Shown here: positions 2,657-58,000 of the stretch, piece after piece
Layout of the letters: each line of letters starts with the position of its first letter
Position numbering within the stretch: position 1 is the stretch's first letter
NCBI GenBank assembly: GCA_004194705.1
Contig: SADC01001246.1
Coordinates: 319,086 to 383,085, forward strand
Direction: 5' to 3'
From: Ditylenchus dipsaci
Lineage: Eukaryota; Nematoda; Chromadorea; Rhabditida; Anguinidae
DNA: 64,000 nt
Program-made: the position numbers and the translations under genes
Notes under the pieces: generated by a model
Databases searched by the model: none
What the model was told of the DNA's origin: nothing
The model's input: the letters and a program-made list of their open reading frames with translations, nothing else

Positions 2657-3821
2657 GGTAACACTTTACTTGGCCCCCCCACGGCTGACCCACTTTCGAG
2701 GTGAATTTTGAAAACCGATTGCATATTCGTGTTTCTCGACCCGGATTTTTACGGGAAATGATCATCAGATTCTGTGAAAGTGAAAAAAAATTTTTTGGGA
2801 TTTGCCTTGGTCCCCCAAGGTAAAATTTTAGAAAAATTTGAAAAAAAAATATTTTTTAAATTGGCGCCTTTTGAATTTTAAAGGGATTAAGGGCTGTATT
2901 GGGAGGGGAAGGGAATAAAAGGGGCCACTTTTATGGCAGAACAATAGAAAAGTAAATATATGTATTCTTCGACTGCCTCACCATGTTTTTCAACTGGGCT
3001 GTGGCAAAAAGAGACTCTATACGCATTTTTTGATCAAGAGTACTTCTCGGAATTATATCTAAGGTAAGTGAGTGCGCGCATCTCTAACTCTCAAGCCCCC
3101 TGCGCCCCCTTCGGGGCGCAGGGGGCTTGGGGCTTGGAGTTGAGATGCGCACACCCACATACCGTATTTCCTCTAATAAGCGCGCCGGCGCGCTTATTAT
3201 TCAAACCCCCAAAAATCTGAAAAATTTTGGGTCGATCTCGAAAATTTTGGGTGCTCAACCAAAATCTAAAAAGTGGAATCTGTAGAGCTCGTGGGAGTTA
3301 AGAAAATGCATTAAACAGCTTTGGAAAAAAAATTCTCTGAGCTGAGAAATAGGCCCTCAAAGTAGGGGGTGCGCGCTTATTAGAGCATGCGCGCTTATTA
3401 GAGGAAATACGGTACCTTAGACACAAATCACTCGAAAGTGACTCTGGATGCATGAAAAAGCATGCATACCAGAGTTTATTTATGCGGTAGGCCCCAGTAT
3501 TCAAAACTATGTTCAACATCTTCTTGTTAGGAGCCTTGTGTGATTAGTGGCCCCTTTTATTCCCTTCCCCTCCCAATACAGCCCTTAATCCCTTTAAAAT
3601 TCAAAAGGCGCCAATTTAAAAAATATTTTTTTTTCAAATTTTTTTAAAATTTTACCTTGGGGGACCAAGGCAAATCCCAAAAAATTTTTTTTCACTTTCA
3701 CAGAATCTGATGATCATTTCCCGTAAAAATCCGGGTCGAGAAACACGAATATGCAATCGGTTTTCAAAAATTCACCTCGAAAGTGGGTCAGCCGTGGGGG
3801 GGGGCCAAGTAAAGTCTAGCC
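2657..3821. mobile_element. Foldback element, hAT-like, perfect 8-bp TSD
   Basis: The element starts GGTAACACTTTACTTGG and ends CCAAGTAAAGTCTAGCC. It is flanked by the octamer GAATATAG at 2649-2656 and 3822-3829, a hAT-type duplication. The two halves are long inverted arms. The outer ~250 bp of each arm is specific to this copy (CACGGCTGACCCAC), while the hinge region at about 3040-3540 is the core shared with the other foldback elements of the window (CTAAGGTAAGTGAGTGCGCG, a GC-rich hairpin, then ACCTTAGACACAAATCACTC). A CCGTATTT element is inserted in the core at 3162-3412. Confidence 0.8.
3162..3412. mobile_element. CCGTATTT element, word GCGCGC, TA target
   Basis: The inverted ends CCGTATTTCC / GGAAATACGG are flanked by TA. 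The empty site CCCACATACCTTAGACAC is visible in sister copies of the host repeat, which proves insertion at TA. The internal word GCGCGC appears four times: twice head to head at the left end (GCGCGCCGGCGCGC) and twice in direct order before TTATTAGAG at the right end. Confidence 0.85.
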
Positions 3822-4154
3822 GAATATAGATATAGAAACCTGTAGAAAGAAAGGGAAAGAGAAGAAAACGTTGGAATAAGAAGGTCTTTGACACAAAAAC
3901 AACTACAAAGTGCCTTACTAAAAGAAAATTTACCAAATGTGCCTTTACCAAAAAAATTTTTACCAAATGTGCCTTTACCAAAAATTTTTTACCAAACGTG
4001 CCTTTACCAAAAAAAATTTTACCAAATGTGCCTTTACCAAAAAAATTGTTACCAAATGTGCTTTTACCAAAACTTTTTTTACCAAAAAGTTTTTTTACCA
4101 AATGTGCCTTTTACCAAATATTTCTTTACCTTTTTCGGTACAGCCGAAAATTTG

Positions 4155-4456
4155 AATTTGGTTGGGTAAATAAATAATTTGGCGGGGTAAACGAGTATTT
4201 TGCTCAAAAATTCAAATTTGGCGGGGTAAAAAATTCAAATTTGGCGGGGTAAAACAATTCGAGCCATTACAAAAATTATTCAAATTGCCAACACTGGTTG
4301 TTACATCCGTACCCAAACTTTTGAAAATCTAAATAAATCGTGTTCAAAAAGAAAAAGGGCTTCAAAATTATTGGCATTTTGTTTGTCTTTAACTGAACGA
4401 AAATTTGGTTTTTGAAACCCCGTGTTGCGTGTATTTATTAGTTCATTATATACATA
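4155..4456. other. Spacer with TTTGGCGGGG repeats
   Basis: Three copies of a TTTGGCGGGGTAAA unit lie at 4175-4250, followed by AT-rich sequence with no recognisable gene. Confidence 0.4.
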
Positions 4457-4694
4457 CCGTATTTCCTCTAATAAGCGGCCCCCCCCCCCTCGACTTTGAG
4501 GGTCTGGATCTCAGTATAGAAGCAATATTTTGCAAAGCTGTTTGATATGTTTTCTTAACTCCAACGAGCTCTACCGATTCCACTTTTTAGATTTGGATTG
4601 AGCACCCAAAAATCTCGAAATCAAATTCCAAATTTTCTGATTTTTAGGGGTTTGAAAAATAAGCGCCCCGAGACGCTTATTAGAGTAAATACGG
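4457..4694. mobile_element. CCGTATTT element, word GGGCGCTT
   Basis: The ends CCGTATTTCC and AATACGG are flanked by TA on both sides. Relative to the 3162 copy the interior is in reverse orientation, with the same conserved interior landmarks (AACGAGCTCTACCGATTCC, AAAATCTCGAAATC). The subterminal word here is GCGCCCC/GCGGCCCC. It lies about 50 bp upstream of the WDR18-like start. Confidence 0.8.
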
Positions 4695-4744
4695 TAAACA
4701 AATTAAAATCTATAATTTTTTGTTCAGCTTGAAAAGTACAGCTT

Positions 4745-7700: not shown

Positions 7701-10412
7701 CTGATATGATATTTATATGATATCGCTGATGTGATATCCGCGTGATATGATATCATGTCGTGATGATATCACGATAGTATATGATATCAAGTGATGTCAG
7801 CAGTTTTACTTTTGACGCTGTGAAAATGATTATTCAGATCGATTCATTATAAGTTATTGAGAAATCGGACATTCAAATATGTGAAACGTTAAAGGACCCT
7901 GTTTCTTCCTTATCATGGCGATTTCGTAGGTTTGAATGCGCGCGGGACCACAAAGATTTTGTGAATAATGTTTTCAAATTATTTTTTTGTTTGCACTTTG
8001 AATTTCAAACGTTATGTTCTATTTGATATAAATCACACCATGACAGTGACAGTTATGGAGCAGTGAAAGGCGAATAATTTGTCCGATCTGGCACTGTCAA
8101 GCAACGTTGGGCTCGACTAGTGATTAATTCTAAATTTTGAACAGATTTACTGAATTTATTTTCTAGACAATAAGCAGAAATAAAAACAATTCGAAATTAT
8201 TATTGACAAAATGTGTGTGGTCCCGCGCGCATTCAAACCTTTCAAATTGCCATGATAAGGAAGAGACAGGTCCTTTAAGCATTTGAATAGTACGCATTTT
8301 TACACTGTTGTAAAACTGCTTTATGTCTCCAAACCTCGGGTGTGAACTTTATTGACTTAGGCCGAATTCGAACGAAGACCCTTCAGAGAGGTGCCTGCCA
8401 AAATTCTGGTCGCAGTAGACGAAAAGTAAGAAAATAATTGAGAAATTATCCTAGAAATTAATTAATTACTGCCATAAAACAGACGTTGAAATGCCTACCA
8501 TCAACAGATCCCCGGTGACTGGAACGTTTTCACTTCGGACTTGCTTGATTCACCGTAAAAATGCCTCATCCAGCTAGGTGCTGTTATATAGAGGGTCTTT
8601 TTCCTAGTAGTGAAGGTTCTAGGGTGCCGTTATATGGAGGGCTTCTTCTTAGGATTTTTCTTCTTGGCCGACCAAATCGGTCTCAGGGTGCCGTTATATA
8701 GGTGGTGCCGTTATACAGAGGTGCCGTTATATATAGGTTTGACTGTATGAGTTGATATCACCTGATATTTGTCATTTGATGTGATATGATAATGATATGA
8801 TATAGGCATTTGAAAAATCGAGTGATATGATACTGATATGACATGAAGTTTGAAAAAATGATGTGATACGTGATATCACCTTCATGATATCATGTCATAT
8901 CATGCTATATGATATCATACAAAAACCCTGACAGTTACCTATCGCAATGCAATCAACTATCTCCACAGGCATACCCAGGGGGGTCGCTGGCTGCGCTATA
9001 GCTCAAACCCCCACCCCCCATAATTTTTCAAAATTTAGCCCTTTAGCACTCCCCCTTCTGGTTCTTTAAGAACCCTTGTCAGAAAATCATGTACCATATT
9101 TCCTTAAATAAGCGCAATTTGCAAAATGTAGCGCAAAAAGGTAACAGTATGAATCAAATTATTTTTCTGACTTGATTCATACCGTATTCTCTCTAATAGT
9201 CCCACCCCTCTAATAAACCCACATCCCTCGTTTTTGATTAGGATTTCAGAGTTAAGGTCATTTCGATTGACAATTTTAAGATTTTTGGCGATCGAAAAAA
9301 TAATGCCATAGTGGGACTAGTAGATTTTACCTTCTTCTGCTATGTTTTGCAAAGATGATGCAACAAATGATACACCGTTAGAAACCAAAATCGCAGGTCT
9401 ACTAGATATTGTTTAAACTGTTTTTAAAGTAGACAAATTTATCCCTTTTTATTAAAAGAAAGAAAGGGGCACATTTTCTTAAATAAGGAGCACATTTTTG
9501 CCAAAAAGGGGCATTTTTCCGTATCGTCCAAAGTTTTTTAGTGTCACAAGAAGGAAGCTATAGTCAATCTCCATTCAGCCAATACTTCCGGTTCTACGGG
9601 CGTGGACCTCTTTGAACATCATAGCGCTGAAGTCTGCAAATTAAGCGGTAGGTCTAGGAAAAATTTCATTATTTTTAAAATTGATTTCTGAAAGAAATCA
9701 TTACAGTAAATATCGATGGGACTCGCCTCGCCTCCGCGGATAAGTGTGGTCATTACTGTATTTGGGATGTGTCTAATGGGCAATTGTTGGTATCAGCTAA
9801 AATGAAAGGTTTTTACATCTCGGTTTCTTGTATTAATAATTATAATTTGTCATCAATCTTAGGTCCCGTAACAGCGCTAAGGTTTGTTGAGCCCTGGCCT
9901 ATATTGTCAGATCAAAGTCCTCGTTCGTCGTGTAATGTCTCTTGTGCTGTGCTTAGTAAAGTTCCAGTGGTGGGGGAGTCAGTTATTGTTCGAAAGCAAA
10001 TACACTCAGCAGAGGTGAAGGAAAACAGTAATGTATGTTTTTTTGAATGATCATGCTTGTTTATGTAATGTAATTGCAGACTCTTCTGAAGTGCAGCCTG
10101 GACTCTTTGATCTCGGCGTCACCCTCGGAAGTTATCAAGGTAGCTGTTTTCTTTCCATTATTTTTCGTCACTGATCAGTTCACATCCGAGACATTTTTAG
10201 GATACGAGTGCACAGTCTGGAAAGAGGCCTAGGTTGGATTCATATGGTGCTACTGGGGATGATGTGATGGAGAATGCTGATGTGGTGGAGATAGAAGCTA
10301 AACAGAGTTCCGCAAAAGTACAAGAATTAGAGAGGGAGATAACGAGGTCCTCAAAATTAATTCTGAGCTCTACAATTTCTGCGCCAACATGTTGCTGGAT
10401 GATGACACTTGA
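4745..10412 (+). CDS. wdr18: WDR18/Ipi3-like WD-repeat protein, multi-exon
   Basis: Homologue of WDR18 (yeast Ipi3), a WD-repeat protein of the Rix1/PELP1-TEX10 complex in 60S ribosome maturation (family knowledge). About twelve exons can be traced: 4745-4771, 4848-4957, 5016-5061, 5127-5268, 5325-5458, 5502-5640, 5673-5836, 9542-9647, 9707-9808, 9863-10032, 10080-10139, 10201-10412. Recognisable blocks are the SLDQT / VLLKVSADCQLTSACMD propeller segment, GTRLASADKCGHYCIWDV, GPVTALRFV, and the C-terminal coiled coil VQELERE...NEVLKINSELYNF typical of WDR18. Most introns are 40-70 bp, but intron 7 (5837-9541) is full of repeats. Near 10350 the frame breaks by one base inside the coiled coil, and the exon 6/7 phase is also one base off; both look like missing bases. 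The first of two ATGs is taken as start. Confidence 0.82.
6100..6890. mobile_element. Putative TIR element with GGTCGAGGTC arrays in the WDR18 intron
   Basis: Arrays of GGTCGAGGTCG-type words occur at 6125-6245, and the complementary arrays CGACCTCGACC at 6775-6885 are in inverted orientation. Both ends share CTTGGTC(A/G)AGGTC. The middle is AT-rich with a repeated CCCCCTGTTGATTTTTT phrase (6365, 6581). No target duplication was found, so the borders are approximate. Confidence 0.5.
6930..7010 (-). repeat. tRNA-like fragment
   Basis: On the minus strand a B-box-like GGTTCGAATCCCATTAGG is preceded by a CCTGG-rich segment. No acceptor stem pairs, so it is a tRNA-derived fragment rather than a gene. 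Confidence 0.3.
7889..8278. mobile_element. TTAA-flanked palindromic element (piggyBac-like target)
   Basis: The ends TTAAAGGACC and GGTCCTTTAA carry long inverted arms (CTTATCATGGCGATTT, TGAATGCGCGCGGGACC and their complements). The TTAA target resembles piggyBac-type insertion. Relatives lie at 34457-34698, 38136-38333, 41459-41661 and 60131-60338. No coding capacity. Confidence 0.65.
8570..8752. repeat. Partial pogo-like repeat with GTGCCGTTATAT words
   Basis: GTGCCGTTATATNGAGG recurs five times, ending in GGTTTGACTGTA, which matches the terminus of the pogo-like MITEs (CAGTCGAAC...). Only one end is present. Confidence 0.45.
9182..9330. mobile_element. Decayed CCGTATTT element, word GTCCCAC
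   Basis: The left end TACCGTATTCTCTCTAATA is followed by GTCCCAC and AACCCAC words. The right end keeps GTGGGACTA but its terminus has decayed to GATTTTACC. The interior landmarks (AAGGTCATTTCGATTGACAA) match the 48900 copy. Confidence 0.55.
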
Positions 10413-15249: not shown

Positions 15250-15257
15250 ATCAAATT

Positions 15258-16084: not shown

Positions 16085-17200
16085 GTTTCGCAGCATAGCT
16101 AAATTTGGGTACATTTTCAGACTTTGGGGAGGGCTCAAATTAGAAAAAATACGGTACCTTACACACAAATCACTTGAAAGTGACTCTGGATGCATGAAAA
16201 AACATGCATACCAGAGTTTCTATATGCAGTAGGTCCCAGTATTCAAAACTATGTTCAACACCTTCCTTTTTGCCGAAAACCATTTCTTTTCGGCTTGAGT
16301 TCAGAATCCCCCCACGGGGAGTGATCAGACGGAAGAGATAACATCATAATCGTGTTTTTCGACCCTGATTTCCTGAGAAAGCCGGCTGTTTTTTTATTTC
16401 TGATGGTTTTTTAGTCAAAATTTCGAAAATTTGAATTGGCGCCTTTTGCATTTTAAAGGGATTAAGGGCTGTATTGGGGGGAAGGGAAAAAAGGGGCCAC
16501 TAATCATAAAGGGCCCACTAACAAGAAGATGTTGAACATAGTTTTGAATACTGGGGCCTATCGCATAAATAAACTCTGGTATGCATGCTTTTTCATGCAT
16601 CCAGAGTCACTTTCGAGTGATTTGTGTCTAAGGTATGTGGGTGTGCGCATCTCAACTCCAAGCCCCCAAGCCCCCTGCGCCCCCGAAGGGGCGCAGGGGG
16701 CTTGAGAGTTAGAGATGCGCGCACTCACTTACCTTAGACATGATTCGAGAAGTACTCTTGACCATAAAATGCATATAGAGTCTATTTTGCCACGGCCCAA
16801 GTTGAAAAACATGGTAAAGCAGCCAAAAAACACAATTTCTTTTTTTAATTATTTTTGATTTTCGCATAAAAGTGGCCCCCTTTTATTCCCTTCCCTCCCA
16901 ATACAGCCCTTAATCCCTTTAAAATACAAAAGGCGCAATTCAAATTTTCGAAATTTTGACTAAAAAACCATGATACCCCCCTGTGGATCGAAAAAATTTT
17001 TTTTTTTTCAGAAATAAAAAAACAGCCGGCTTTCTCAGGAAATCGGGGTCGAAAAACACGAATATGATGTTATCTCCTCCGTTTGATCACTCCCGTGGGG
17101 GGGGATTCGAACTGCAACCTTCTTTTCTGTTGAAGGCGTCATGATTCCGAGAAGTACTCTGACCATAAAATGCATATAGAGTCTATTTTTAAAGAAAGTC
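16085..17200. mobile_element. Foldback family, rearranged copy
   Basis: Two partial arms surround the shared core: ACCTTACACACAAATCACTTG at 16155, TTGAATACTGGGGCC at 16545, the GC-rich hairpin near 16665-16700 and CTTACCTTAGACATGATTC at 16727. The arms carry CCCCCCACGGGGAGTG at 16310 and the CCCGTGGGGGGGGAT complement near 17090. No clean target duplication could be found. Confidence 0.6.
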
Positions 17201-17457
17201 GTTGTGTAAATCAATTGCATTTACAAATTTCATTTTTCCGACTTCAAAAACGGGAAAAGGATGGCGCTGGCGTTCAACCTGGCGTTCATTAAACGCCTTG
17301 GAACAACGTAAAATCTAAACGACGGTGTAAAGCTTCGCGTTTGTAAAAGCTGACGTAAGAATAATCCTGCTTCCTATTCAAAAATTTTGAGAATCTTTAT
17401 CGCTTCCTTGATTGTCGAAGGGTAAATTTCATTAAATTTAGTTCTTCTCTTATATTA

Positions 17458-17693
17458 CCGTATTTTCTCTAATAAGCGCCCCGGGGCGCTTATTAGAGAG
17501 TGGCAATTTTTTCAAACTTTAAGTGGTCTGAAACTTCGGTTTTCATTAACTTTTTGAGCTCTGTAAAAAGTGCCTGTTAGATTTTTAAAATTCCTCGCAG
17601 GAACTTTTTACAGAGCTTAAAAAGTTAACGAAAACAGAAGTTTCAGAGCACTTGAAGTTAGGGGGGGGGGCGCTAATTAGAGAAAATACGGTA
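17458..17693. mobile_element. CCGTATTT element, word GGGGCGCTT
   Basis: Ends CCGTATTTTCTC / GAGAAAATACGG are flanked by TA. The left word forms a long palindrome around GCGCCCCGGGGCGC, and the right end has GGGGGCGCTAATTAGAG. The interior (GTTAACGAAAACAGAAG and its complement) is itself a hairpin and differs from the other copies. Confidence 0.8.
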
Positions 17694-17979: not shown

Positions 17980-18611
17980 TTTAAAAAAACGTACTAGGTT
18001 AACCGAAACTCGGCCAACATAGCCCTGCTTTACATTATATCAAGTATCAATTTGTTAGTCGGAACAATCTTCGAGTACACTTTCTTCATTTTTATTTAGT
18101 TCAAATCAACGAACTACTGCTCATATCTGCACTGAATCGATATACACTAAGTTTGTGTGTGTGAGTAAAACCACCCAACTTTTTTACAAAATAGAATAAG
18201 TTTTCACTTAGTTTTCGATCATTCTGAGTAAGATAGGAGAAAAAAACCAGTCAAAATAAACATTTTGCATTTCTCAAAATTTTTAGTTTTCGGATTTTTC
18301 GGGGTTTGCGAAAATTTTGCAATAACATTGTAATAGCATTACCTTATTATTACAATGACATTTTATGGCTATTTTCGAACATTTCAAGCAAAAATTGTAT
18401 TTTTATGCTCATTATATAACATTACTATGCCATTGCCAAAAAAAATTGCAAAACCCAAAAAATCCGAAAACCGAAAATTTTGAGAAATGCAAAATGTTTA
18501 TTTTGACTGGTTTTTTCTCCTATCTTACTCAGAATGATCGAAAATAAGTGAAAACTTATTTTATTTTGTAGAACGTTGGTTGGTTTTTCTTGCGCACACA
18601 AAGTCAGTGTA

Positions 18612-18854
18612 CCGTAATACCTCTATTAAACGGACACCCTCTAATAAACGGGCACCCTCAAGGACCTATATCTCAGCGCAAAAAAAAATTTTTTGCAAAT
18701 CTGTTTTTCGCGTTTCTTGATCACCTCGATCTTAGTTGATTCCGCTTTTTAGATTTTTTTGAGTACCCAAAAATCTCAAAATCAAAATATTTTTTTTTCG
18801 ATTTTTTAGGGTTGAAAATTAAACGGGCATGCCCGTTTAATAGAGGTTATACGG
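18612..18854. mobile_element. CCGTATTT-type element, word ACGGGC
   Basis: Ends CCGTAATACCTCTATTAA / complement, TA-flanked. The word ACGGGC(A) is found twice in direct order at the left (AAACGGACACC, AAACGGGCACC) and as the palindrome ACGGGCATGCCCGT at the right, i.e. the same four-word plan in reverse orientation. Confidence 0.8.
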
Positions 18855-18884
18855 TATATCAATTCAGTGCAGACCTGAACAGCA

Positions 18885-18954
18885 CAGTCCAACCCCGATA
18901 AGCCGACACCCTGAGTTCGGTTCCTTGGGGTGTCGGCTTATCGAGGTTCGACTG
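18885..18954. mobile_element. Short pogo-like MITE
   Basis: A hairpin: CAGTCCAACCCCGATAAGCC at the left pairs with the complement ending CGAGGTTCGACTG, followed by TA. The CAGTCGA...TCGACTG ends and TA target match pogo/Tigger-type elements. The left TA has decayed. Confidence 0.6.
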
Positions 18955-19129
18955 TAGTTAGTTGGTTTGAACTAAATAAAAATACACAAAGTGTACTCGA
19001 AGATTATTCCGACTAACAAATTGACACTTGATATAATGTAAAGCAGGGCTATGTTGGCCGAATTTCGACTAACCTAGTAAGTTTTTTTTCAAACTCGTTC
19101 CGGATAGGATAAAATATCTCTTACATCGA

Positions 19130-19560
19130 CTGCAAAAACGAAATGCTTATTCAACTGAGTGGAAAATGGAGGTTGTGAAGCATGCAAAATTGGTCTCCGT
19201 CCATTCGGCCAGCAAAAAAAATTCAATGTGGATCGAGCGACTTTCAGGGATTGGATCAAGAATGAAAATTCTTTAAGATCAAATAAATCTTTTTTCTGGC
19301 TTCGTTTAATTGTTTTCACTTAGCCGTCATCCCAGGAGGATGTACCAACTTCATACAAGTTTGTCATTCTATTTTAATTCGTTAAATCGATCATATTTAA
19401 ACTCTTCATTAGGCCCCGGATGTGGTGTGGGACCCTCCCATCAAGGTCAAGATTCAAGAGCTGTACAACAACTGGATGCTCAATTATGCTGACAAGAAGT
19501 GGACTGCCAATGGAAATCTACCACCGACATCAATGAACATCTGGTTGTAGGGGATTTGGC
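19130..19560 (+). pseudogene. Possible pogo/Tigger-type transposase remnant
   Basis: Broken frames read FNVDRATFRDWIKNENSLR (a helix-turn-helix-like segment) and, after a gap, KIQELYNNWMLNYADKKWT followed by NGNLPPTSMNIWL-stop. The order, an HTH then a W-rich segment, resembles the N-terminal half of pogo/jerky-type transposases. No catalytic domain follows. The assignment is tentative. Confidence 0.35.
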
Positions 19561-23570: not shown

Positions 23571-23807
23571 TTTCTCCTTTTATTTACAAGTTTAGTGTCA
23601 AAATGATCCTCTCACTCCTGGCTAACCAATAAGACTATCAGCACAGACTTTTATATCTACCGGAGCTTGTAACCAGGCTAAAATAGGCCAAATTTCTGAA
23701 AATCGATGGTTTCGAGGATTTTCTTTGACTGGCTTCACTGAAAATTTCTGACTTTTTTCTACAAGTCACAAGTTTCATACACCAAAATGTAGCTAAAGCC
23801 TCTTTCA

Positions 23808-23965: not shown

Positions 23966-24008
23966 AGTTGAGAATTGAGGTTGAAAAGTGACGGTCAAGT
24001 GTACATTC

Positions 24009-24914: not shown

Positions 24915-25079
24915 GTACATTCTCCACATTTCTTCACCTAATAAGATTCTATACGTTTATTCTTGTGACTCTGTCTTTCGAGAATTATGCCAAATGGAGG
25001 ATAACTCTTATAACAGCCGAAAAGTTAACATTGAGCCTATAGCAACTTTGTCGATTTTCTTACAATCTTTTCTCTGAAT

Positions 25080-28085: not shown

Positions 28086-28106
28086 ATTACATTGGGCCGA
28101 TATTAT

Positions 28107-37467: not shown

Positions 37468-40400
37468 CTATTTTCTCATAGTTGGAATAAGAGTTTCTAC
37501 CGCCGTTTTACGCTGCGTCTCAAAGATACTAGTCGCATACTCCCTTTCCAATTCTTCCTTGGTCTTGGTTTCGTTGTCACGACCTTGCAGGAGATTGTCC
37601 TTTGCTATAGCTTCCTCTTCATACTTACTGCGATTCTCAAAGAAGAATAGGACCTTGTGTTCATATTGTAGAGACTTTTGCTGAGCTGCGATTTCATCCA
37701 GACGAAGCCGTAACTCAAGACGCTCGGCCTGAAAAGCAACTTTATAAATGACTTTCATAAACAGACGTAGAGTAAAAGACAGATTGCAATCTTATGCATT
37801 ATATTTTTTTTAGCTTTTTCATGGACCATTTAACATACTCAACAAATTCTTGACTGATGTCCTTCAGGTTAACTTTTATGCCAAAAAATTAGATTCCCTA
37901 AGGGTGAACATCTTAGAAAAATATTTAACGCCAGGCACATTCTTATTCTCCCTTTTATAAAATCTAGCTAATTTTCAGTCGAGCCTAAAACAAGAAGGGT
38001 CAAGTATTTTTCAGTCGCAGCATTCGAAAAACTGAAACTGATTAGACTAAGAATTGGTCTACGAAATGAGTGGCGATCCAAAAGTACCGCAAGAAATTTT
38101 AAAGCCCAACTAGAATCTGTGCGAGATAAACTTAGTTAAAGGACCATGGTTTCTGCGAGCAGTGGCATGTGCAAAATTTGAATTGGCGGAAGACAATTCT
38201 CTTTCGTCTCAAACTTTACTCTTTGGAGTCTTCCACCGTAATTTCAAAGAGTACAGTTCGAGACGAAAGAGAAGTATACCCGCCAATTCAAATTTTGTAC
38301 ATGCCACTGCGCGCAATAACCATGTCCCTTTAAACACAAAAAAATACCTGCACTTCAATAAACTTGTATCTGGCGTCATTCCATTCTGAAAATTGCTTCT
38401 TCTGAAAATTCATCAACTTCTGCTCTTCCTCAGCAAGAATTGGAGAAAACATCTTGTGAAGCATCTTGGCAGTTGGAATTTCCGACGAAGGTTCCTCGGG
38501 AATTTCTAGCGATGGTTCCTTAAGAGTCTCTGGCGATGCTTGTGGAACGGCACTCTCTTCTTTCCCTGACTCAGCATCAAATTCAGCTGCATCATTAGAC
38601 TGTTCGCCTATTGACTGAGATTTCTGCAGAGATACACCAAAGGAGATCAGACTTTTACACATATCTTTAAATGATTCACCCAGCTTTGCTTGAAGCTGCC
38701 GATCCTCGCTCAGACTTCGTGTGAACCATTCAATAGATTTTCCAACAAGCACTGTAAATGAATTTATTGGAAGTGGATTGTGTTATGAAAATTCTCACTA
38801 TTGGCTTCCAGTAGATCAAAATGACCATCGTTCCACTCGTTTTTCAAATAAGGAAACTTCATAGTTTTCTGCAAAAATGACACTTTAGCTGTTGCCTGAT
38901 TATTACACCTTCTCAGTAAGAAAATTATGAAGTTCTTATGAAGCTCTAACTCTCATAAAAGTTTCTACAAATGTCATTGAAATGAGGATTAGAAGAAGGC
39001 AGGTTTGATAAAAGACTTGGAAAGCTTGCAAGGGTCATTACAGTCGAAGCTCTATATGGTGTGCACATAAACGCACCCAGAATTTTCTGACGGACAGGGG
39101 GGGGGGCTAAAATGGCAAAAAAGCCGAATAAGGCTGAAAAAACTGAAAAAGGATAAAAATCTTGACGGGGGTGGGGCTATAGCCCGGCTAGATCCACCAC
39201 CCCCCCCTCCCGGGTACGCCTATGAGTGTACACCCAAGGGACCGGCCTTTTTTTGTAGACCGAATTTTTGAATTATGTAAACGCAGATCGACTCAGGACC
39301 CGTACTAAAAACAGAAAAAATTAGAATAATGCTAATTAGACCAAATCTCGCCGATTAGTCAACTTCACGAAAAAAAAGGTTTTTAGGGGTCGAAAGAGAA
39401 ACTCAGTGGCTTTCAGATGAGATATAAATTTCTTTAATAATATATTAGCATGGCTAAGATATATGGATTTTCATAATTAAACTCCGAATTAGACTTTTAA
39501 AAATCAACCTTTTTAGTTGGGATGCTAATTGGTTGATTGCGTGGAAAAAAAGTTTGCACTCATTCTCGTGGTTACTTTTATCACGTAAAGGATATGTTTC
39601 GGCGCATTTTGGTATAGGACAGTCAAAGCACGGAAAAACGGAAAAAATTTTACGGGCAAAAGTTTGCTAAAAAATGAAAATTTAGACTTTAGACACCTCT
39701 AGGGCAGTCTAAAGTCTAAATTTTCATTTTTCAGCAAACTTTTGTCCGTAAAATTTTTATCCGTTTTCCAGTGCTTTGACTGTCATATACCAAAATGCCC
39801 AGTAACATATTGTTAACCCGATAAAAGAAGCCACAAGAATGAGTGCAAACTTTTTTTCCACGCAATCAACCAATTACCGTATTTCCTCTAATATACCGAC
39901 ATGTCGGTTTATTTTTCAACCCCTCAAAAATCGTGAAAATTTTGGGTCGATCTCGACAATTTTGGATGAAGATCCAAAATCGAAAAAGCGGAATCGATAG
40001 AGCTCGTGGGAGCTAAGAAAACGCAAAAAAAGCGATGTAAATTTCTTTCTTTGGACTGAGATACGGACCCTCGAAGTAGGGGTGTCGGTTTATTAGAGGG
40101 TGTCGGTATATTAGAGGAAATACGGTAGCATCCCAACTAAAAAAGTGGATTTCTAAAAGTCTAATTAGGAGTCTAATTATGAAAATCCATAAATCTTAGC
40201 CATGCTAATATATTACGAAAGAAACTTATATGTCATCTGAAAGCCACTGAGTTTCTCTTTCGACCCCTAAAACCTTTTTTTCGTGAAGTTGACTAATCGG
40301 CGAGATATGGTCTAATTAGCATTAGTCTAATTTTTTCTGTTTTTAATACGGGTCCAGAACTGAAAAGCGACTTTTTTGGCATATGAAGTCAAAAACACGA

Positions 40401-46076: not shown

Positions 46077-49000
46077 TTAAATTTGTATAAAGAGAGCGCC
46101 GTCTCCAGTAGTTCCCTCAGCCAAACCGATTGTATGTTCTACAACCAAATTTCTGCCTAAACATCTTTTAGTCTGCAGTCTATACAGCCCATCAGAACAT
46201 TTTTTGTACTGAAACGAGAGAAGCCATCTGGAATGTCCAGTTGGTGGTTAGCAAGGAAGTGTTTAGAAAGAGCTGATCCGCGACGATACTTCAGTCCACA
46301 CAAGTGACAGAGGTAGGGTGACACGATGTGATCCTAGAATAAAGATTTCATGATCTTTTTTTCGACAACTACCAACCTTATCATGTGCCTTTTCATGCTG
46401 TCTCAACTGCTTTTCCCACCTGTATTTTTGCCCACAAGTTGAGCATTCAAATGATTCTTCATTTGAGTGGACAGCCATGTGCTTATTAAGGTCAGACCTT
46501 TGAAAAAATCTGAAAATGACTTTGTAAAAATGTTGGATAACGTTGAAGGTAAATTAATTAATTCATAACGCTAGGAATATTGCATTTTTTTCAAAGTCTA
46601 GGTTATAGGGATTGAAAAGTAATTAAAGTCGGTGAGAGTCGTAAAACAAACAAAGCAAGACCGTTAAAAAAAATTTGCACTGACCAAGAATCGAACTCGG
46701 GACGCCCGCGTGGCAGGCGAGCATTCTACCACTGAACCATCAGTGCCTATTGGTGTTCTTTATAGAAATTAAGACTCATAGAAATTTAAACTCTTTGTTT
46801 ATTTGAGCCTAATCTATAACTGATGACATCTGAAGCAGATTGATAAGTTATGCTTAATTTTTATTCTGATACTTCACATGCAGTGATGATTTTGTCGTAG
46901 AATGATCGCTTGCCACGCGGGCGGGTGCCATGACATTTCGTCCAAAAGTCAGTTCGTCCAAAGCCAATTCGTCCACAGACAATTCGTCCAAAATTCAGTT
47001 CGTCCAAAGTTAATCCGTCCAAAATTCAGTTCGTCCAAAAATTAATTCGTCCGAAATTCAATTCGTCAAAAATGCAATTCGTCCAAATTTTAATTTCAAG
47101 TCAAAATTTTGCGGGAAAACTATTTTTACGGTCACAAATTTAATTTCAACCGCTCAGACCCGTGCCCACCCGTTCTCCATAAATTAGTCTCCTAATAGGT
47201 TTGAGTCCCAATGGTGGCGAAATATTTTTTCCTGACTAAAATAGCTTTTAACGGAACATCAAGCCTTAGGGTGGATAGTAAAACCATCTGCAACGTGCTC
47301 AAACGGGTGTCCACCTTCATAATCCGAAACTTTGGATTTAGCCTTAATTAAATACAAAACGTTGTATCCTAGCCACAATCGTGTCCTGAGTATATTTTGT
47401 TAATACAGAAACATCCATTTGGATTGAAGGAACCCTTGTTCTCAGTAGTATTAGACCGCATCGTACTTAGGTGGTTGTCCAAAACACGTGGCGTTTAGGT
47501 GACTGTATTTAAGGAGAAACATTCAGGTGATGTATTTGGCCGTGCCTACATATTGGTACGCAGGTGAAAGTGGATCAATGGAAATTTTGACGGACTTCAT
47601 TTTGCTCAAATTTGGACGAATTGCAATTTAGACGAATTAACTTTTGGACGAATTGTCTTTGGTCGAATCGAACTTTGGACGAACTGCATTTTGGACGAAT
47701 TGTCTTTGGACGAATCGAATTTTGGACGAACTGCATTTTGGACGAATTGACTTTGAACGAACTGACTTTTGGACGAAATGCGATGGCAACCGCTGGCGAC
47801 CCGAGTTCGATTCTAGGTCAGCGCAAACTTTTTTTAACACGGGAAAGGCTGTACGTCCTGATGGTATGTCTTTGTGCAGAATTTCACGCTGAACACGATG
47901 GTGAAAAAAAATTTGAAAAAGGCACTCTATGGTGGTCAGCTGCCTTTGTGAACCATTAATGTCATGATTTTTGCCTATGCAGCTTCAAAGAGGTATAACA
48001 TGCCAATTTTTGTAATGAATAAAAAAAATCAATTTGCAAAAGAAATAGCAAATTGCGAGCTTTCAAATGACGTATCGTTCAGAGCTGACGACTTTCGATC
48101 AATCGGAGTTGCGATTAATTGCAAATCGCACCAAATTTGGCATAAAATAATCGCATAAAATAATTTTGGAATAATCGCAAATCGCATTTTGAGAAATTGC
48201 ACGATTGATCGCAAATTTGCCAGACTGAAAAATTTAGCCAGCAAAATTGCTTTTAATAATGAATGGTACTTTTTTCTCAACGCAAAACACTTGGAAATTA
48301 CCGAAAAATAAATTTTTTCTCACCGCAATGTGATATTCCCGCAAAATACTCTTTTATCGCCGCAGAATACTTTTTCTCACCGCAAAATTACTTTTTTCTT
48401 ACCACACATTTGGCGCTACTGTGATATACCCCCCCCCCACCAAAAGCGCTACTGTAATATACCCCCCCCCCCCCAAAATCGACCTACTGTCATATACCCC
48501 CCCCCCCCCAAAACCGACTTTTTTAGGGATGGTCAAAAACCATTTTTACACAATAATTTCGCCATAAAAGGACCAGAAAAGCAATTTAAATGGGATTGCG
48601 GGCTGTATTGGGAGGGGAAGGGAATAATACAGGGGCCACTTCTCGAGATGGTTGGGATCCTTAGAGTACTAATTCTCTAAGCGTCTAAGGGTACTTTCAA
48701 ACCCAGGAACTTGTGGTGCAGGCATAAGTATAAGTACTTTTCATGGACCAAGCCCATCAGCGGGGTGGACCTCGCGGGTTTACTCATAGGCCTAGCACTT
48801 TTTGAGTGTAGGCTGAATTTTTGGATGCTGGGCCTCTGGCCCGGCCTTGTAGAACGAAGGGAAATGCTCTTCGGCGAAAAAATAAAGATGTTGAACATAC
48901 CGTATTTTCTCTATTAATGAACCCGGGTTCATTATTTTTCAACCCCCGAAAAATCTCAAATTGTCAATCAAAAATGGCCTTAACTCTAAAATCCTAGTCA

Positions 49001-52000
49001 AAAATAGGAGGGGGGTTCATTATTAGAGAGGGGTTCATTAATAGAGAAAATACGGTAGTTTTGAATACTTGGGCCTACCGCATAAATAACTCTGGTATGC
49101 ATGCTTTTTCATGCATCCAGAGTCACTTTCGAGTGATTTGTGTCTAAGGTATGTGGGTGTGCGCTTCTCAACTCCAAGCCCCTGCGCCCCCGAAGGGAGC
49201 ACAGGGGGCTTGAGAGTTAGAGTTGCGCGCACTCACTTACCTTAGACATGATTCCGAGAAGTACTCTTGACCATAAAATGCATATAGAGTCTATTTTTGC
49301 CACGGCCCAAGTTGAAAAACATGGTAAAGCAGCTAAAAAAAAGTGGCCATTGTATTATTCCCTTCCTCTCCCAATACAGCCCATAATCCCCTTTAAACTG
49401 CTTTTCTGGTCCCTTTATGGCAAAATTATTGCATAAAAATGGTTTTTAGACACTCCCCAAAAGTCGGTTTTGGGGGGGGGGGTTATATGACAGTAGGTCC
49501 GATTTTGAGCGGGGGGTATATTACAGTAGCTTTTTTGGGGGGGGGGGGTATATGACAGTAGCGTCACACATTTTTTTAGTCAAAAAATAACTTATATCGC
49601 TAGTAATCCTACCTAGAGTGGTCAGAAGCACCTGAAAGATGGTTTTTTATGGCTTATTTATAAACGTTGTCGTTGGAATATTTTTTTATGAAACCGTTTT
49701 TTTCGCCAACGAAGACGACAACGATGACCTATTTATAAAAAATCCAACGACAACAACGACGCCAAGGACAACGAAATTTTTCATTCAAAATTGGACAAAT
49801 TTGGCATTTTCAGTCGAGATTTCAAGGGAAAACATTTTGAGAATATAGTAAATTCTCAAAATTCTGACTTAAAATCATGGTTCGCAAAAACAGCAAATTT
49901 GCTGAAATGCAGCAAAAATAATTGGCGTTGTGTGTTTATTGAAAACAGCAAAATTGCAGCAAAAATGCAGCAAAATTTTTGCTGCATTTCAGCAAAATTT
50001 TGCTGCATTTCTCCGTCTCCCACATATTACGCGTTTTGCATTTTTCCAACTATATTTTTTGCTTTCTTTCTTTCTGTAGTCAGAAAATATATGAAACATC
50101 CGTATAACAGCAATACCTAGGCTATATGCAGCCCGTAAAAGTCACTCTGAAAGGGGAGGAGGGATTTTCATATAAGCATCGGCTAGGTCACAGGTTCAAA
50201 TCCACCTGGATGCATGACCTATTTTTCACACCATTTTTCATATTTTATTTTCAAGTTTGGTATGAAAATAATGCTCATTCTAATGTCTATCCGACAAGAG
50301 GGACTGCTGGGTACCCAAACTGGGATCCCCACCTGAGTACCCCTCCCGTGTACAGGATGGTTTGGAAAAATTCGGAAAATCATAAAAAAGTTTAAGTTTG
50401 AATTTTATTTGTCTGCAACTCATTCATATTTGTTTAAGTATAATATATTTTGTGTTTCGTATAGAAGAGCTTACAGGTAGCTTAAATTCTGTCACCGATT
50501 TTCCTGGGTAAGTCGATGGGGCAAGAAGCTACCTACGCGAAATTTTCAATATTTTCCGAATCTTTTTGGATTACTCGATACTACTCCACCTTGGTACCTC
50601 TTTTCTGCGTAGCTCTATCCTGTGTACTCCCCCACCTGGGTACCACCACTGAGTACTACCTCATGGTTATTCCCGTCCTAGGTACTCCTCATATTGGTAT
50701 CCCTCACCTGAGTAACACCAGCTGGGTACCCCACCTGGGTCCACCAACTACTCAACTACGAAGATCGGGCCACCTGAGTACTGATCGTGAGTGATGGTAA
50801 ACTTATAATTTTTTAAAGATTTTCGCCATTTAGATTGGCGATTTACAGCATTTTTTCGTTTGATAGACCAAACCTAAGTCAATCCTAGAAGCTTTTAGGG
50901 CTCAAGAGGTGTCTGAAAAGTTCTGAATCCCTTCTTCGTCTTCGCTGTCATCCTTCTAATCTGTCCTTATCTCTTTCTTTTGTTCCTTTTTTAGAGTCAG
51001 AGTTGCACGAGGAATAATATATAAATGCTTTCACATTAAAATTACTATAAAAAGTTGGTAGCTCGCGAAGGTTTGATCAAGAAAAAAGAGAGTATGTTCG
51101 ACGAATAGGATGGCCTAGATTGGACGATTTTAAATTTTATTTATTACTAAATTCCGATTTTCAACTTTATTATAGCTTAGATATAAGCCATAGCCTAGAA
51201 TCATGGCTACACATTGGTATAAAAAATGTGTAATTGTAAAGAAGATACAAAACATCAATCAAGGAAAAACACAAAATGAGGCAGCTGATTCAAGTAGGCT
51301 TCAGCCTTCAACTCAGCTGTTATAGTTGTTTAACCATGCACTGATAGTCTCGCCGGATAGCCATGAGGATGAGCATTATTTTCATACCAAACTTGAAAAT
51401 AAAATATGAAAAATGGTGTGAAAAATAGGTCATGCATCCAGGTGGATTTGAACCTGTGACCTAGCCGATGCTTATATGAAAATCCCTCCCTCCCCTTTCA
51501 GAGTGACTTTTACGGGCTGCATATAGCCTAGGTATTGCTGTTATACGGATGTTTCATATATTTTCTGACTACAGAAAGAAAGAAAGCAAAAAATATAGTT
51601 GGAAAAATGCAAAACGCGTAATATGTGGGAGACGGAGAAATGCAGCAAAATTTTGCTGAAATGCAGCAAAAATTTTGCTGCATTTTTGCTGCAATTTTGC
51701 TGTTTTCAATAAACACACAACGCCAATTATTTTTGCTGCATTTCAGCAAATTTGCTGTTTTTGCGAACCATGCTTAAAATGCAAAATTTGTCTAATTTAT
51801 AAGAAAAATTTTCGTTGTCTTTGGCGTTTGATTGTTTATAAATAGGTCGTCGTTGTCGTCGTCGTTGGCGTTGTTGTTAGCGTAAAAGCGCCTTTATAAA
51901 ACATTTTATCTAACGACAACGAAAATGTTTATAAATGAGCCATTGGGGTTTGCTAAAAAAAGAGCAACGTTTTGGCAAAAACTCGATTTCCCGCATCAGA

Positions 52001-55000
52001 ATCCGACTTTAAGTGGCTCAACCGCTGAGAATCTCACTTTGAACCATTCTCAACCACCTTAAACTCAACTTTTTTTAGTTGATTTTCATGTTGAAACTCA
52101 ATCATTTTCTTAAAGCATCCTAAACTGCTCCAAACCAGAATTTAAGTATTCATGCATCTAAAACCCTCCAGAAATCTATCCCTCATAATTTATTATCCAG
52201 ATATAAAATGGTCAAATTTCCTGCAATAAGACCTACCCCCTATCACATTGAGTGCAGAAGTGGTTGCGTATTTTGGCGTGAACATTAGCCACATGCCTTC
52301 TCAGATCAAAAGTGTTGTCGAGCACTATGGAGCACAGTGAACACTTGTAATTTCGCACATGTCTTTGACAGTGGGCTTTCAGTAATCTGGCTGTTTTGAA
52401 GTTTTTTTGGCAGAAGAAGCAGAAAAACTCTGTCTCACCTGTAAAATATGGTTAACTATGATAATTTCGGATTCTTTAACACTGTCAAGGCCGAGCGTGT
52501 CAATTGTTTATCTAGACTCAGAATTTCACGAGGAACACGATGGTGCAAAAATCCAAGAAAAAAACGTGGTTTTTCGCTCTCAACCAGGCATTTTAAAATA
52601 AATAATTTTCGTCTTTCCCTACCACATGAAATTTGAGCAAAAGATGAACGGTACATGCTCAAATTCATGTACCACATATGCGTGTGATATCTTAAATTGC
52701 AAAGCGTTATCAGAGCTACCTATTACGCACAAAGTTGTATCTGAGTGATCACAATTTCACGGAACATTTTCGAATTTATTTTTGTGATTCAGTTTTCACA
52801 AAATCTCAATTTTAACCCGCAAATGGCCATAACCAGGGGTGGACACGGGCCGGCCCAGCCCGGGCTTGGCCCGGCCCGCCGGGCCAAGCCGAACTATCAC
52901 GGCCCTGGGCCGGGCCGCCAAAATTCGGCCCGTGTCCATGCCTGGTCATAACTTTGTGTAGAAGTGACTTCTATCCAAATTTTTATAACACAAAGAGAGA
53001 TCTGATTTTCTAATTTAAATATTTATTGTCTTGAGCGAAATTTAAAAATTGGACAGTGCCTTCTCGATTCCAATAGCAGTTTCATAAGCAAATCGACCAT
53101 GCTGAACACGAATTCGGTGTCCGAACTTGTAGTCTGGCTAGTAGAAAAAAAGTTAGAAAAGTTTGTGTTGCAACTTGTATACTTTTTTTGAGGGTTTTGT
53201 GACAATCTGTTACCAAATTTAGTGTTGAAATAACCGAAACATTCTGCTCTCTCTTTGTGTTATAAAAATTTGGAAAGAAGTCACTTCTACACAAAGTTAT
53301 GGCCATTTGCGGGTTAAAATTGAGATTTTGTGAAAACTGAATCACAAAAATAAATTCGAAAATGTTCCGTGAAATTGTCATCACTCAGATACAACTTTGT
53401 GCGTAATAGGTAGCTCTGATAACGCTTTGCAATTTAAGATATCACACGCATATGTGGTACATGAATTTGAGCATGTACCGTTCATCTTTTGCTCAAATTT
53501 CATGTGGTAGGGAAAGACGAAAATTATTTATTTTAAAATGCCTGGTTGAGAGCGAAAAACCACGTTTTTGGCTTGGATTTTTGCACCATCGTGTTCCTCG
53601 TGAAATTCTGAGTCTAGATAAACACTTGGCACGCTCGGCCTTGACAGTGTTGAAATAATACTCGCCCTCCTGTCTTCTGGCCACATGGTCCAGTAGCTTT
53701 GTGTTGTTAGCAAAGAAAACTCCGCAAAAAGGGCAAGCACACATTTTGTCGCCCGAATGATGTTGAACATGGACTCGGAGAGAAGTTTTGCTCTTCATGG
53801 TCATTTCACAGTCTGCAAAGAAAGGTTTGTTAATCAGCTAATATTTGATTTCTTATCCAACCAACAGCCCTGACCATTTCCCACAAACAGCAGTAGAGGT
53901 CCTCTTCATTTCTATGAGATGAGTCCATCAAATCAATGTGCTTGTTCAAATGGCCAATGTATTGGTTAATGTCCACAAAGCTCTGCATGCAACCATCCCA
54001 CTCGCATATTAGAGCATCCCTTGGTAAACCAGTCGGGAAGAGCTTGGGAAATTGCAACTGAAAATCGATATTGAACACAAAGGGCACAAAGACATCCGAT
54101 ATAGAAAGCCCTGTAAAGCTTCAGTAACTTTTGTTAGATTAGACAGCCAGTTAGCGACGGCTTTACACAAATATTTCCATTATCTTGATTTTTTATTTAT
54201 TTAAAAACGGGTAAGTTAGCGCTGTGAGAAAGGACTGAAAACTACCGTATTTTCTCTAATTATAGACACAGGTCTATAATTATCAACCAACCGAAAATCG
54301 GAAAAATTCGAGGTCGATCTATAAATTTTCGGTCGCTCAACCAAAATCTAAAAACCGGCATCGGCAGAGCTCCTGGGAGCTAAGAAACCGAGAAAAATAT
54401 ATTTGCAAAATTTTTACTCTGCGCCGAGATACAGACCCTCAAAGTCAAGAGGGGTCTGTAATTAGAGACGGGTCTATAACTAGAGAAAATATGGTATGTT
54501 AAAACTGTTGCTAACTGGCTTTGTTACTAACTGCCTGGTCGCTTTCGCCACTTTCTCAAAGAGCAACACTATAGACAAACAAAATTGTTCGCGTTCAGTT
54601 TAGATAGCCATCACAATTCGTCTATTCTCGGATATCCGACACTCCAGTTATCGTACACGTGATTATCCAATACCCTAAATATCATAGTGGGGCGGCCGTC
54701 CGACGGGGACGGGCAGTTTTCGTCCCCGTCCAGTCCGGACGGTCTAGCTATTGGCCCAACAAATATGGACGGTCTTCTTTCTAGAACACAGTACAGTCGA
54801 CTCTCGATATAAGATACCCCCCTAAAGTTCGTTCCCATCTTGGGTCCGACGCTTTTTTTAACCTCATTTCAAAATGTTTTGCCAAATGTGATTCGTCAGT
54901 GTGGTCGGAAATATCGCAAGGATTCTGATTTTGCCGATCGTTTCTCAAAAAGTCGAATCTTTCACCAGTAAGACCCGCGGCTCTTTATATAAGATGCCCT

Positions 55001-58000
55001 AAATCTTAAAAAATGTATCTTATATCGAGAGCCGAGGGTCTTACTGGTGAAAGATTCGACTTTTTGAGAAACGATCGGCAAAATCAGAATCCTTGCGATA
55101 TTTCCGACTACACTGACGAATCACATTTGGCAAAACATTTTGAAATGAGGTTAAAAAAAGCGTCGGACCCAAGATGGGAATGAACTTTAGGAGGGTGAAT
55201 TATATCAAGAGTCGACTGTACATAGAACAGAGTGCCAAAAATACAGCGACCGTGGTGTTCTGTACTGATTTTTTAACTTTGTTTCTAATACAACTTTACC
55301 TAAAATTAAATTCTGAGCCTTGTTTTGTTAGAAACCAAGCTGAAAAATCCGTACAGAAGTTCCATGATTAGGCGAAATTTTTTAAATTAGCGGTGGACGA
55401 TCCAAAACACATGGCCATGTCCCTTTAAAGAGTAGACCATCCAGATTTGATGGGCCAATTGTTAGACCGTTCGAACAGGACGGCGACGGGACGGGCCGGA
55501 GGATGGGCGCCCCACTACGCTGAATATACTTAAGGAGGGGGAGTCTTCTACGGCTAATTTTTGACATCGACTTCACGGGGTGTCAAACACGTCGAAAGTC
55601 ACAATCGAATTTGGCGTTCTGTCATTAACCATTTTGAATGTAACCCGATTGTCTGCTGTTTTTTTCTTTGAAACGACACCTTAAAAAGTTCATTCCCGCC
55701 GAGCGTTCGACACTTTTTTATTCCAAAATTTGAAATTGTTTTGGTCTTTCGTTAATTTTTTTATCAATCTGGTCTAAAAAGTTGCAAGGATTCCGATTTC
55801 GTAATTTATTTTTCCAAATTACACTATATACCGTATACCTTCTAATAAGGCCCGATGGAGCCTTATTAGAAGATTTCCGGAAATTTTTCACTTGTGGCAT
55901 TGTGTTTTTAGCCATAAAAATCGCGACATTCTTGGGCGTACAGCCACTCAAAAAATAGCGCTGTTCCTTAGCTACATTTTAAGGGGTTCAATGCCTAAAA
56001 TGATGTATTTTTCTTAGCTTTAAACACATTTCCACAAGTCACTTTGGGGGGTCACGTCTTCTAATATTGCCCCATGGGGCCTTATTAGAAGATATACGGT
56101 AAGCGGAGATATGAGGTCCATTGGCTTATTTAAACATGTCAATTTTCATAAAACCACTAGGTTAATTCAAAAATTGACGGCGAATTGAAAAACCAAAGAC
56201 ACCATAAGAAAGCTGAAGAAAAATGCTTCATTATGGCTAGCCAGAATATTTTTTAAACACGAAATATTGGAGAAAAAGCCATTTGAAGTTGGGGGTTTGA
56301 CTACGACAGACGTTAATTCAAACTTCTTTTTGTTCAACTTTTTAAATTTCTCATGCCATTCGGTAAAGTTTGTTTCAATCGATAGAGCAAGTCCTGGTCA
56401 ACCCAGTGATGTAAAAATTTCTTATATATGACAAACATGAGCATAGGTTACAAACAAGGATACAAGGTTGAGAAAATATGGGGAAAAAGCAAAAATTCAC
56501 TAAAACTTAGGAGGGTGCAGGCCAATTTGCGATTTTTATGGCGGTTTTTTCGCTGAAAATTGGTGTTCGAAAAATGCTGACTTTTTGAAAAAAAAAACAC
56601 ACCTTTACGCCAAAATTCATTACAGACTATGGTGTTTTTGTACTCGTTAGAAAGAACTAGAGATGATGACGGGACGGGATCCCGTCGGGATCCCGATCCC
56701 GCCCGACCCGATTTCGGTCGAAAATCCCGTCCCGAAATCCCGCCCGATCAGTTACAAGAATCCCGATCCCGAAATTCGTTGAATCCCGAGCTCCAATTTT
56801 GTTTTAAAAAACACCATTTTTGCTCTAAAAAACCACCGATTTTTAACTTTTTTTCTATTTTTTTCAGTTTTTTTCATGAAAATCTGAATTTTTTATTTAA
56901 ATTTCTTTGTTATTTATGCTTTTTTAAGGGAGAAGAAACTTTATATTTACATCGCCGAAGTCACAGGTTAGACTACCATTGGGCAAAACATTCATTTTTA
57001 CTTTCTTTTCTTCTCCAACTGGTAGTATTGATTCAAATGGGTGTATTGATCTAACTGGCTGGATCTACCAAACTGACTGGATCAAAAATCGAAATTAATC
57101 AAAATCGATTTAGGTCGATCTTGTTTATTTGATCGATACAATTAGCCCAATAAAGTTGATTGGATCGATTTAAGTGGTTAATGGAAGTGATAAAAGCTCA
57201 GCAATTTTAGCCTCGAATTGTACACAACCTTTCAAAAACCAAGCTCTAATCATGCTACGCCATTTAACAAAATATTGTCAAAGCATAGACAATCAAATCG
57301 ATCTATACAAAACGAGTGAAGTAGTAATCGAGCTAAACAGAATCAAACAATTGCAAGAGTCGATCCAAACAATAACAGTGAAAAATAGTTTTGCAAATTT
57401 TAGATAGTTCACAATTGATACGAAAAGCAGACGCAGCGATTTAAAAATAGTCGATACATTTAGAAATCGACGTAGAAAACGACAGAATTACACAAATCAA
57501 TCAAATTAAAAAAAACTACGAAAAAAAGCAACGGCGAAAATATAGCGACTACAAAATGAAAACGAAAAAAAAAGAAGGTGCGCGCAGCGCGCCCGGCTCT
57601 GGAAACTAGTAAATAACTAAAACAGGATAAAAAATAAAAAGCAGCTAATTTCACAGATTAGGCAGTACTTTTCAATATATATCTGTTTTCATTACACATA
57701 TTTGGTTTTTAAAATAGTCAATAGTTTGAAAATATGGCAAAAACATGTGAATTTCGCCCTGTTCTTCTCTCTACTTGAAAAATCCCGAAATTTGTTCGGG
57801 ATCCTGTCGGGATCCCGATTTTTTTTTCCGAAATCCCGTTCCCGAAATTTTTTTGGCCGAAAATCCTGTCCCGAAATCCCGCCCGAATCGGTTTCATCAT
57901 CTCTAGAAAGAACAGCTCATTCTTCGTTGAAAAAGTTTTTAAACGAGTGTACATCATTATATTTTCACTAAGTATAAATCGTTACAAGAAATTTACTGAT

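Follow-up and report, generated by a model that had tools for sequence, protein, structure and literature searches.

The window analysed here is a 64,000-nucleotide stretch of the genome of the nematode Ditylenchus dipsaci (assembly GCA_004194705.1, contig SADC01001246.1, positions 319,086–383,085), and the positions given below are those of the window. It contains a set of short elements flanked by TA, whose ends share a constant motif next to a 7-base word that differs from copy to copy. A sequence-only reading of the window had placed eight such copies with common ends at 3162, 4457, 17458, 18612, 39877, 48900, 54245 and 55831, and all eight coordinates corresponded to complete elements, running from TA to TA, with lengths of 160–273 base pairs (bp). 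The ends consisted of TACCGTATTT or a near form, then one or two free bases, then a unit made of CTCTAATAA and the word, which was present in three to four copies per element. The motif CCGTATTT occurred 14 times in the window, compared to 2.07 expected (maximum over 100 shuffles of 6), and TA directly preceded 12 of these occurrences. The unit core CTCTAATAA was found 53 times with at most one mismatch (19.9 expected).

In a typical copy the two ends differed in layout. End A was a head-to-head pair, the word and its complement making a palindrome some 14 bp long with TTATTTTTCAACCCC or a similar sequence after it, and end B was composed of two to three tandem units with a pitch of 18 bp. For the best copies, the word had been described as standing four times, as an opposed pair at one end and twice in direct order at the other. 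This layout was parsed in five of the eight copies; copies 4457 and 17458 had three parser-accepted sites each, and copy 55831 had head-to-head pairs at both ends and no tandem end. Four sites matching with at most one mismatch in seven were seen in copies 3162, 39877, 48900 and 18612, and in copy 54245 the four sites differed by one to two bases.

The eight elements are non-autonomous. The first, on the plus strand at 3160–3414, had GCGCGC(A/C) four times, with a head-to-head left end and a tandem right end. The second (4455–4696, minus strand) and the third (17456–17693, plus strand) both had GCGCCCC, the three sites of the former being GCGGCCC, GCGTCTC and GCGCCCC. The element at 18610–18856 on the minus strand had ACGGGCA, with one site reading ACGGACA. 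On the plus strand, ACCGACA stood at four sites of the element at 39875–40127 and TGAACCC at four sites of the 160 bp element at 48898–49057, and TAGACCC was the word at 54243–54496. The word had been thought to intrude into the interior of this last element; the string found there, GATCTATA, is one base off the word GGTCTATA, and the related copy 3162 reads GATCTCGA at the same place, so that the interior holds no true copy of the word. The element at 55829–56101 (plus strand) had GGCCCCA, with sites GGCCCGA, GGCTCCA, GGCCCCA and TGCCCCA. A ninth, decayed copy had also been suspected at 9182. Its left end was indeed present at 9180–9240 on the plus strand, with units CTCTAATAG-TCCCACC and CTCTAATAA-ACCCACA, and no right end was found. 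A solitary end, TACCGTATTTTTTCTAATTTGAGCCC, was located on the minus strand at approximately 16097–16156, and no mate was found for it.

The same ends were searched for in the whole genome (227 Mb, 1,359 contigs). The end motif TACCGTATTTN{1,4}TCTAATAA gave 3,923 matches (1,944 + 1,979) and two units at the 18 bp pitch gave 582 + 826, with none for the reversed control in either case. From elements sampled mainly in the first contigs, around transposase matches and in the window, 57 candidate end pairs were collected, 48 of which were parsed (nine false pairings or unparsed pairs were dropped); removal of the decayed and discordant L073:2344 left 47. The layout with one head-to-head and one tandem end was parsed in 29 of the 48, and one end was near-palindromic in 40. 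One locus, L062:118–178, was an element of about 61 bp with little beyond its two ends.

Within an element the words of the two ends agreed closely, with a mean of 0.87 mismatches per seven bases (175 comparisons, 47 elements) compared to 3.85 between elements (4,126 comparisons). When each word group was represented by a single element (n = 15), the mean was 1.32 mismatches against 4.10 for permuted pairings, and none of 20,000 permutations was as low. Tandem neighbours behaved similarly: among 26 pairs with letters, counted by hand, 15 were identical, six had one difference, two had two, and three had three or four. Genome-wide, GCGCCCC was next to GCGCCCC 110 times (61 + 49) and CTCACCC next to CTCACCC 106 times (56 + 50), while mixed neighbours of these two words, the only two covered by the count, were found 0 and 0 times in the two orders.

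Such agreement could be produced inside the element itself, a mutated word spreading between sites by hairpin-templated repair, slippage of tandem units or end-to-end conversion. The palindromic and tandem layout would favour template switching on general grounds, and the high agreement within copies is what copying in cis would yield. We nevertheless regard it as unlikely. In 30 elements, the mismatches between neighbouring sites of one end (0.96) were no fewer than those between the outermost (0.87) or the inner (0.63) sites across ends. Moreover, in several families the outer word is kept apart from the inner word, in the same way at both ends, a difference which local copying would erase. 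This split was observed in L005, L009, L031, L067, L082 (595), L015, L013 and L064 (2099), some with single-base deviations. Examples of outer/inner pairs, alike at both ends with small deviations, are TCGGCCA/ACGGCCA, GAGCACC/GCGCACC, AACCACC/ACCCACC and GCGGGCA/ACGGGCA. These families may be intermediates, or the outer and inner sites may be under different demands. The frequency of near-palindromic ends also brings to mind a match of the word for the hairpin or cruciform folding of the end, and not for reading by a protein. This seems to us scarcely credible, as a hairpin needs only its two arms to be alike and makes no demand on the tandem sites at the opposite end.

The interiors of the elements were compared by local alignment against a shuffled null; a global alignment with cheap gaps was abandoned for it, having inflated the identities (0.73 in the shuffled control). 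Pairs with the same word and aligning well (n = 49) had interiors 93% identical at the median (range 72–98%) and clustered in the tree. The words thus mark subfamilies, and they could be nothing else than diagnostic bases inherited from old founders, with no functional coupling. Several observations make this very unlikely. Among 31 elements of 200–280 bp, 278 of the 366 pairs whose words were at least three bases apart still aligned above the best of 400 shuffles. In the 33 best-aligned pairs of this kind the interiors were 79–88% identical for consensus words differing at three or more of the seven bases, and parallel changes at several sites would still have been required in the founders themselves. 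Aligned over 144 bases, the 18612 copy (ACGGGCA) shares 85% of its positions with L065:3061 (TTACCCC); with L068:78 (CTCCCCC), again over 144 bases, it shares 84%. Six of the seven consensus word bases differ in each of these two pairs. In a second, shorter interior, L001 and L016 (GGCGGCC), L012 (TGACCCC) and the 48900 copy (TGAACCC) were 85–98% identical over 50–69 bases.

Word divergence also outran interior divergence. For interiors diverging by 0–8, 8–16, 16–22 and 22–35%, the words diverged by 4, 42, 55 and 53%, respectively (29, 29, 120 and 95 pairs). L078 was left out of these bins, its word differences corresponding to a one-base shift, for which reason its apparent word switch relative to its family was rejected; with it, the first two bins read 9% and 44%. 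Conversely, the word GCGCCCC was carried by three interiors with no detectable homology, of the 17458, L024 and L082:1390 types (local scores of 18–20, the largest of 400 shuffles being 22). Words are thus replaced more quickly than the bodies that carry them, and one word can occur on different bodies. The sequence-only reading had set independent variation of the words, or mere old subfamilies, against concerted change. Subfamilies are indeed marked by the words, but no independent variation was seen and homologous interiors were switched at several sites. Taken together, the lack of mixed neighbours, the words outrunning the interiors and the unrelated interiors sharing one word indicate that the word depends on something other than the body of the element.

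A candidate was found in longer elements. Elements of 700–1,100 bp with these ends contained reading frames resembling a pogo transposase in its C-terminal part. A genome search with these frames listed at least 155 matches (150 of 915 candidates scored), and in nine of ten fetched loci the match lay between CCGTATTT ends, with the words GCGCCCC and AACCACA; in the tenth, L087, only one end was seen. Two loci showed the whole arrangement, in the order end B, a first and a second helix-turn-helix domain (HTH1 and HTH2), the catalytic DDE domain and end A: L092 (322–2395, 2,074 bp, word GGCCCCA) and L094 (292–3159, 2,868 bp, word AGCGGCA), which L093 closely resembles. The Pfam model BrkDBD (PF09607, cut-off 23.4) matched HTH1 in all four cases tested, with scores of 24.6 (L094), 37.7 (L108), 27.9 (L107) and 31.2 (L103), and the best match of HTH1 by sequence to a solved structure was the DNA-binding domain of Brinker (2glo, E = 3.4e-6). 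HTH2 of L094 matched HTH_Tnp_Tc5 with 24.8 bits (cut-off 22.2), its continuation remaining below at 18.1, and no match to this model was obtained in a 40-amino-acid fragment of L092. For DDE_1 (cut-off 22), the middle catalytic piece scored 31.5 and the last piece 20.7, below the cut-off. In L094, 35 residues were counted by hand between the second and the third D, a GT..AG intron being left out. BrkDBD with HTH_Tnp_Tc5 and a DD35D spacing are the marks reported for the Passer family (PMC7386202). By its domains, the predicted enzyme of the elements with window-type ends is thus a pogo-type DDE_1 transposase most like Passer.

Searching with DDE_1 as a whole (PF03184) gave 181 matches, the best 30 loci of which (L031–L060) were another family with no CCGTATTT ends around the match within 1.5 kilobases (kb) on each side; this family is presumably Tigger-like. 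No passing relative of HTH1 was found in viral contigs. On the plus strand at 19130–19560, the window itself contains a decayed transposase gene like those found between the window-type ends, in which a frame-shifted HTH1 (helix DRATFRDW) is followed by the DDE-like pieces PGGCTNFIQ and PDVVWDPPIK, read by eye. Some 270 bp separate it from the 18612 copy. No ends belonging to this gene were found, hence it was of no use for testing a residue–base code. Between the two, at 18885–18957, an inverted repeat of the form AACCYCGATAAGCCGACACC was visible, perhaps another TA-type element, and presumably a Tigger-like one if so.

The sequence-only reading had proposed to look for source transposases whose DNA-binding domain varies in step with the word, and such variation was seen in the predicted recognition helix of HTH1. 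A genome search with HTH1 listed at least 150 matches (150 of 463 candidates scored). Thirteen regions, hand-picked for diversity and open frames, were fetched outward from HTH1, and units with a readable word were present in 11 of them, L099 and L105 being without. The 11 regions represented eight families, L094 was the ninth, and each family was given one row with its majority unit (in L093 and L094, the middle unit of end B reads AACGGCA). L91x (L014 and L091, word AAGCGCA) was left out owing to its broken HTH1. The words and the corresponding predicted HTH1 helices were AAGGACA with GRTQIIN, AGCGGCA with SRSTVQD, ACGCACA with DRARVIE, ACGGGCA with SRSRIQK, ACGGGTC with TQSRIQE, AGCCAGA with DWSTVND, ACCGACA with SRTTVID, GGCCCCA with DRKCVRK and GCGCGCA with HRKRVQD. 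Three of these words are also those of window copies: ACCGACA in 39877 (family L103), GCGCGCA in 3162 (family L108) and GGCCCCA in 55831 (L092 and L107). The nine families are presumed to be autonomous; beyond L092 and L094 (and L093 in part) they are known from an end and HTH1 alone.

Across the nine families, the distance between words followed the distance between helices (Mantel r = 0.59, p = 0.00055) more closely than that between the rest of HTH1 (r = 0.38, p = 0.047), helix and rest being themselves hardly correlated (r = 0.10). The partial Mantel correlation of word and helix remained at 0.59, a value reached by 23 of 50,000 permutations, and after removal of any one family the word–helix p was at most 0.0184. 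For total mutual information, the word–helix value was reached by 0 of 2,000 permutations, and the value for word and rest of HTH1 by 258 of 2,000. The seven helix columns held 1.60 bits compared to 0.95 for the rest of HTH1, a result reached by 223 of 20,000 random column sets. The closer tie of the word to the helix than to the remainder of HTH1 speaks against inheritance from founders alone. Copying in cis leaves both the helix match and the presence of one word on unrelated interiors unexplained, and hairpin folding makes no demand for a link with HTH1. The reader of the word might instead be a different protein, for instance a host repressor or an anti-silencing factor, the helix covarying through the family. 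A precedent exists in Arabidopsis, where motifs of VANDAL transposons co-evolve with the transposon-encoded VANC protein, which is not a transposase (PMC5735166). Here, the covariation with the helix exceeds that with the rest of HTH1, and we hold such a reader to be highly improbable.

We propose, with good though not complete confidence in what the sequences suggest, that the window elements belong, as short non-autonomous copies, to a pogo-type family with Passer as its closest likeness, and that a putative transposase-binding site is repeated at both ends, with the word as its likely variable half. Since the word changes with the part of the enzyme predicted to touch DNA, it is likely an address for the transposase of its own family. 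By analogy with the bipartite sites of pogo transposases, HTH1 would read the word and HTH2 the constant TCTAATAA. The CENP-B site is an example of such a bipartite pogo site. The multiple units of each end may load multiple transposase molecules. A mismatched unit would reduce movement, so that a transposase would multiply only the copies with matching sites, and because mismatched copies would move less, the surviving ones would match one enzyme at all their sites. In such a co-evolution of transposase and site, an enzyme lineage changing its helix might no longer be titrated by the many old non-autonomous copies. It would drop these and keep the matching ones, and the sites of the surviving lineage would then seem to change in concert. 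A new word might first spread to all sites in steps, by way of words that match in half, or else through recombination with an element that already matches. Two causes had been put forward for the concerted words. Selection through a switching DNA-binding specificity is supported by the predicted recognition helix varying with the word; a process copying the word between sites has no positive support and is not needed for matched words, though it may be the way in which a new word reaches all sites.

The nine families also displayed four perfect associations, between helix residue 4 and word base 3, residue 6 and base 5, residue 2 and base 6, and residue 1 and base 4. It is possible, and we suggest it tentatively, that each of the four residues sets one base: Arg4 with G3 and Thr4 with C3, Gln6 with G5 and Ile6 with A5, Arg2 with C6 and Gln2 with T6, and Asp1 or His1 with C4. 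One genome would then hold at least a dozen mutually exclusive transposase–site pairs on one scaffold, and non-autonomous copies would leave or enter lineages by switching all their sites.

Several points weigh against the reading of the word as a transposase address and against the code. Nine families are few and were hand-chosen. Concordance within word groups is in part plain descent, and the outermost word unlike the inner one in several families means that the sites are not all alike. HTH1 was also above the CENP-B_N cut-off in three of the four cases tested, L094 scoring higher there (26.4) than with BrkDBD (24.6), and CENP-B_N is the mark of other pogo families (pogoR, Tigger). HTH2 was read in two families. 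The code associations were seen post hoc, several residues occur once, which eases a perfect fit, and none of the 336 residue–base pairs tested survived correction (best p of 0.0085); no association is therefore established alone. A code prediction set beforehand, that the word ACGGAGA of contig C2 would go with Trp2, Arg4 and Ile or Asn6, failed as a triple: the pattern had one match in the genome, elsewhere than the predicted sites, and the reversed control had six.

Among known systems, the elements resemble Passer in their BrkDBD and HTH_Tnp_Tc5 motifs, DDE_1 domain with DD35D, putative TA target and short terminal repeats (PMC7386202, PMC9976928), and their lengths of 2.1 and 2.9 kb are within the 1.6–4.0 kb given there for the family. 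The likeness is one of domains and general features, and repeated CTCTAATAA-and-word units at both ends, with many words in one genome, are unmentioned for Passer in the accessible parts of these sources. The comparison of Passer ends available from one of them concerns three bases between two consensus ends among fish (PMC9976928), not words switched within one genome. In VANC/VANDAL, short tandem-repeat motifs likewise change together, in step with the specificity of an element-encoded protein, but VANC is an anti-silencing protein of Mutator-like elements that binds non-coding regions inside them (PMC5735166). Here the transposase would putatively do the reading, at sites placed in the ends; the coding pieces are DDE_1 of pogo type, neither Mutator-like transposase nor VANC. 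The bacterial RAYT/REP system also couples an enzyme with abundant short palindromes, with which it co-evolves, several pairs being possible per genome (PMC2817692); RAYTs are tyrosine transposases, unrelated to the DDE_1 enzyme of the present elements. As for Brinker, whose site is given as GGCGYY (PMC3738585), its helix HRRQIQKW (2glo) is near HRKRVQDW of L108, and the L108 word GCGCGC resembles this site. Brinker differs as a host transcription factor with a single specificity. A title search that left most subscription journals outside its reach found no description of words being switched at the ends of Passer or pogo elements.

In the general view, a drifting apart of enzyme and ends divides transposons into families that no longer interact, with intermediates seldom preserved. 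Many copies with one architecture, many words and the likely cognate enzymes in one genome would constitute a record of such splits. They open testable questions, on how the specificity of a protein changes with all its sites following, and on how non-autonomous copies keep up. If the association of helix and word holds in the full set, it would provide an evolutionary recognition code for the HTH1 fold and orthogonal transposase–end pairs.

Other features were noticed in the window. At 22089–28085 and 28106–34110, a segment of about 6.0 kb is duplicated in tandem at 98.9% identity, with one reading frame per copy, presumably for a protein phosphatase. Between 12600 and 15310, GTCGCGCGACAAA palindromes are repeated and linked by CCGAATTT or CCGTTTTT. 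The reading frames at 61678–63184 resemble those of a Harbinger-type transposase, and a single tRNA-Gly gene with anticodon gcc is located at 46676–46746 on the minus strand.

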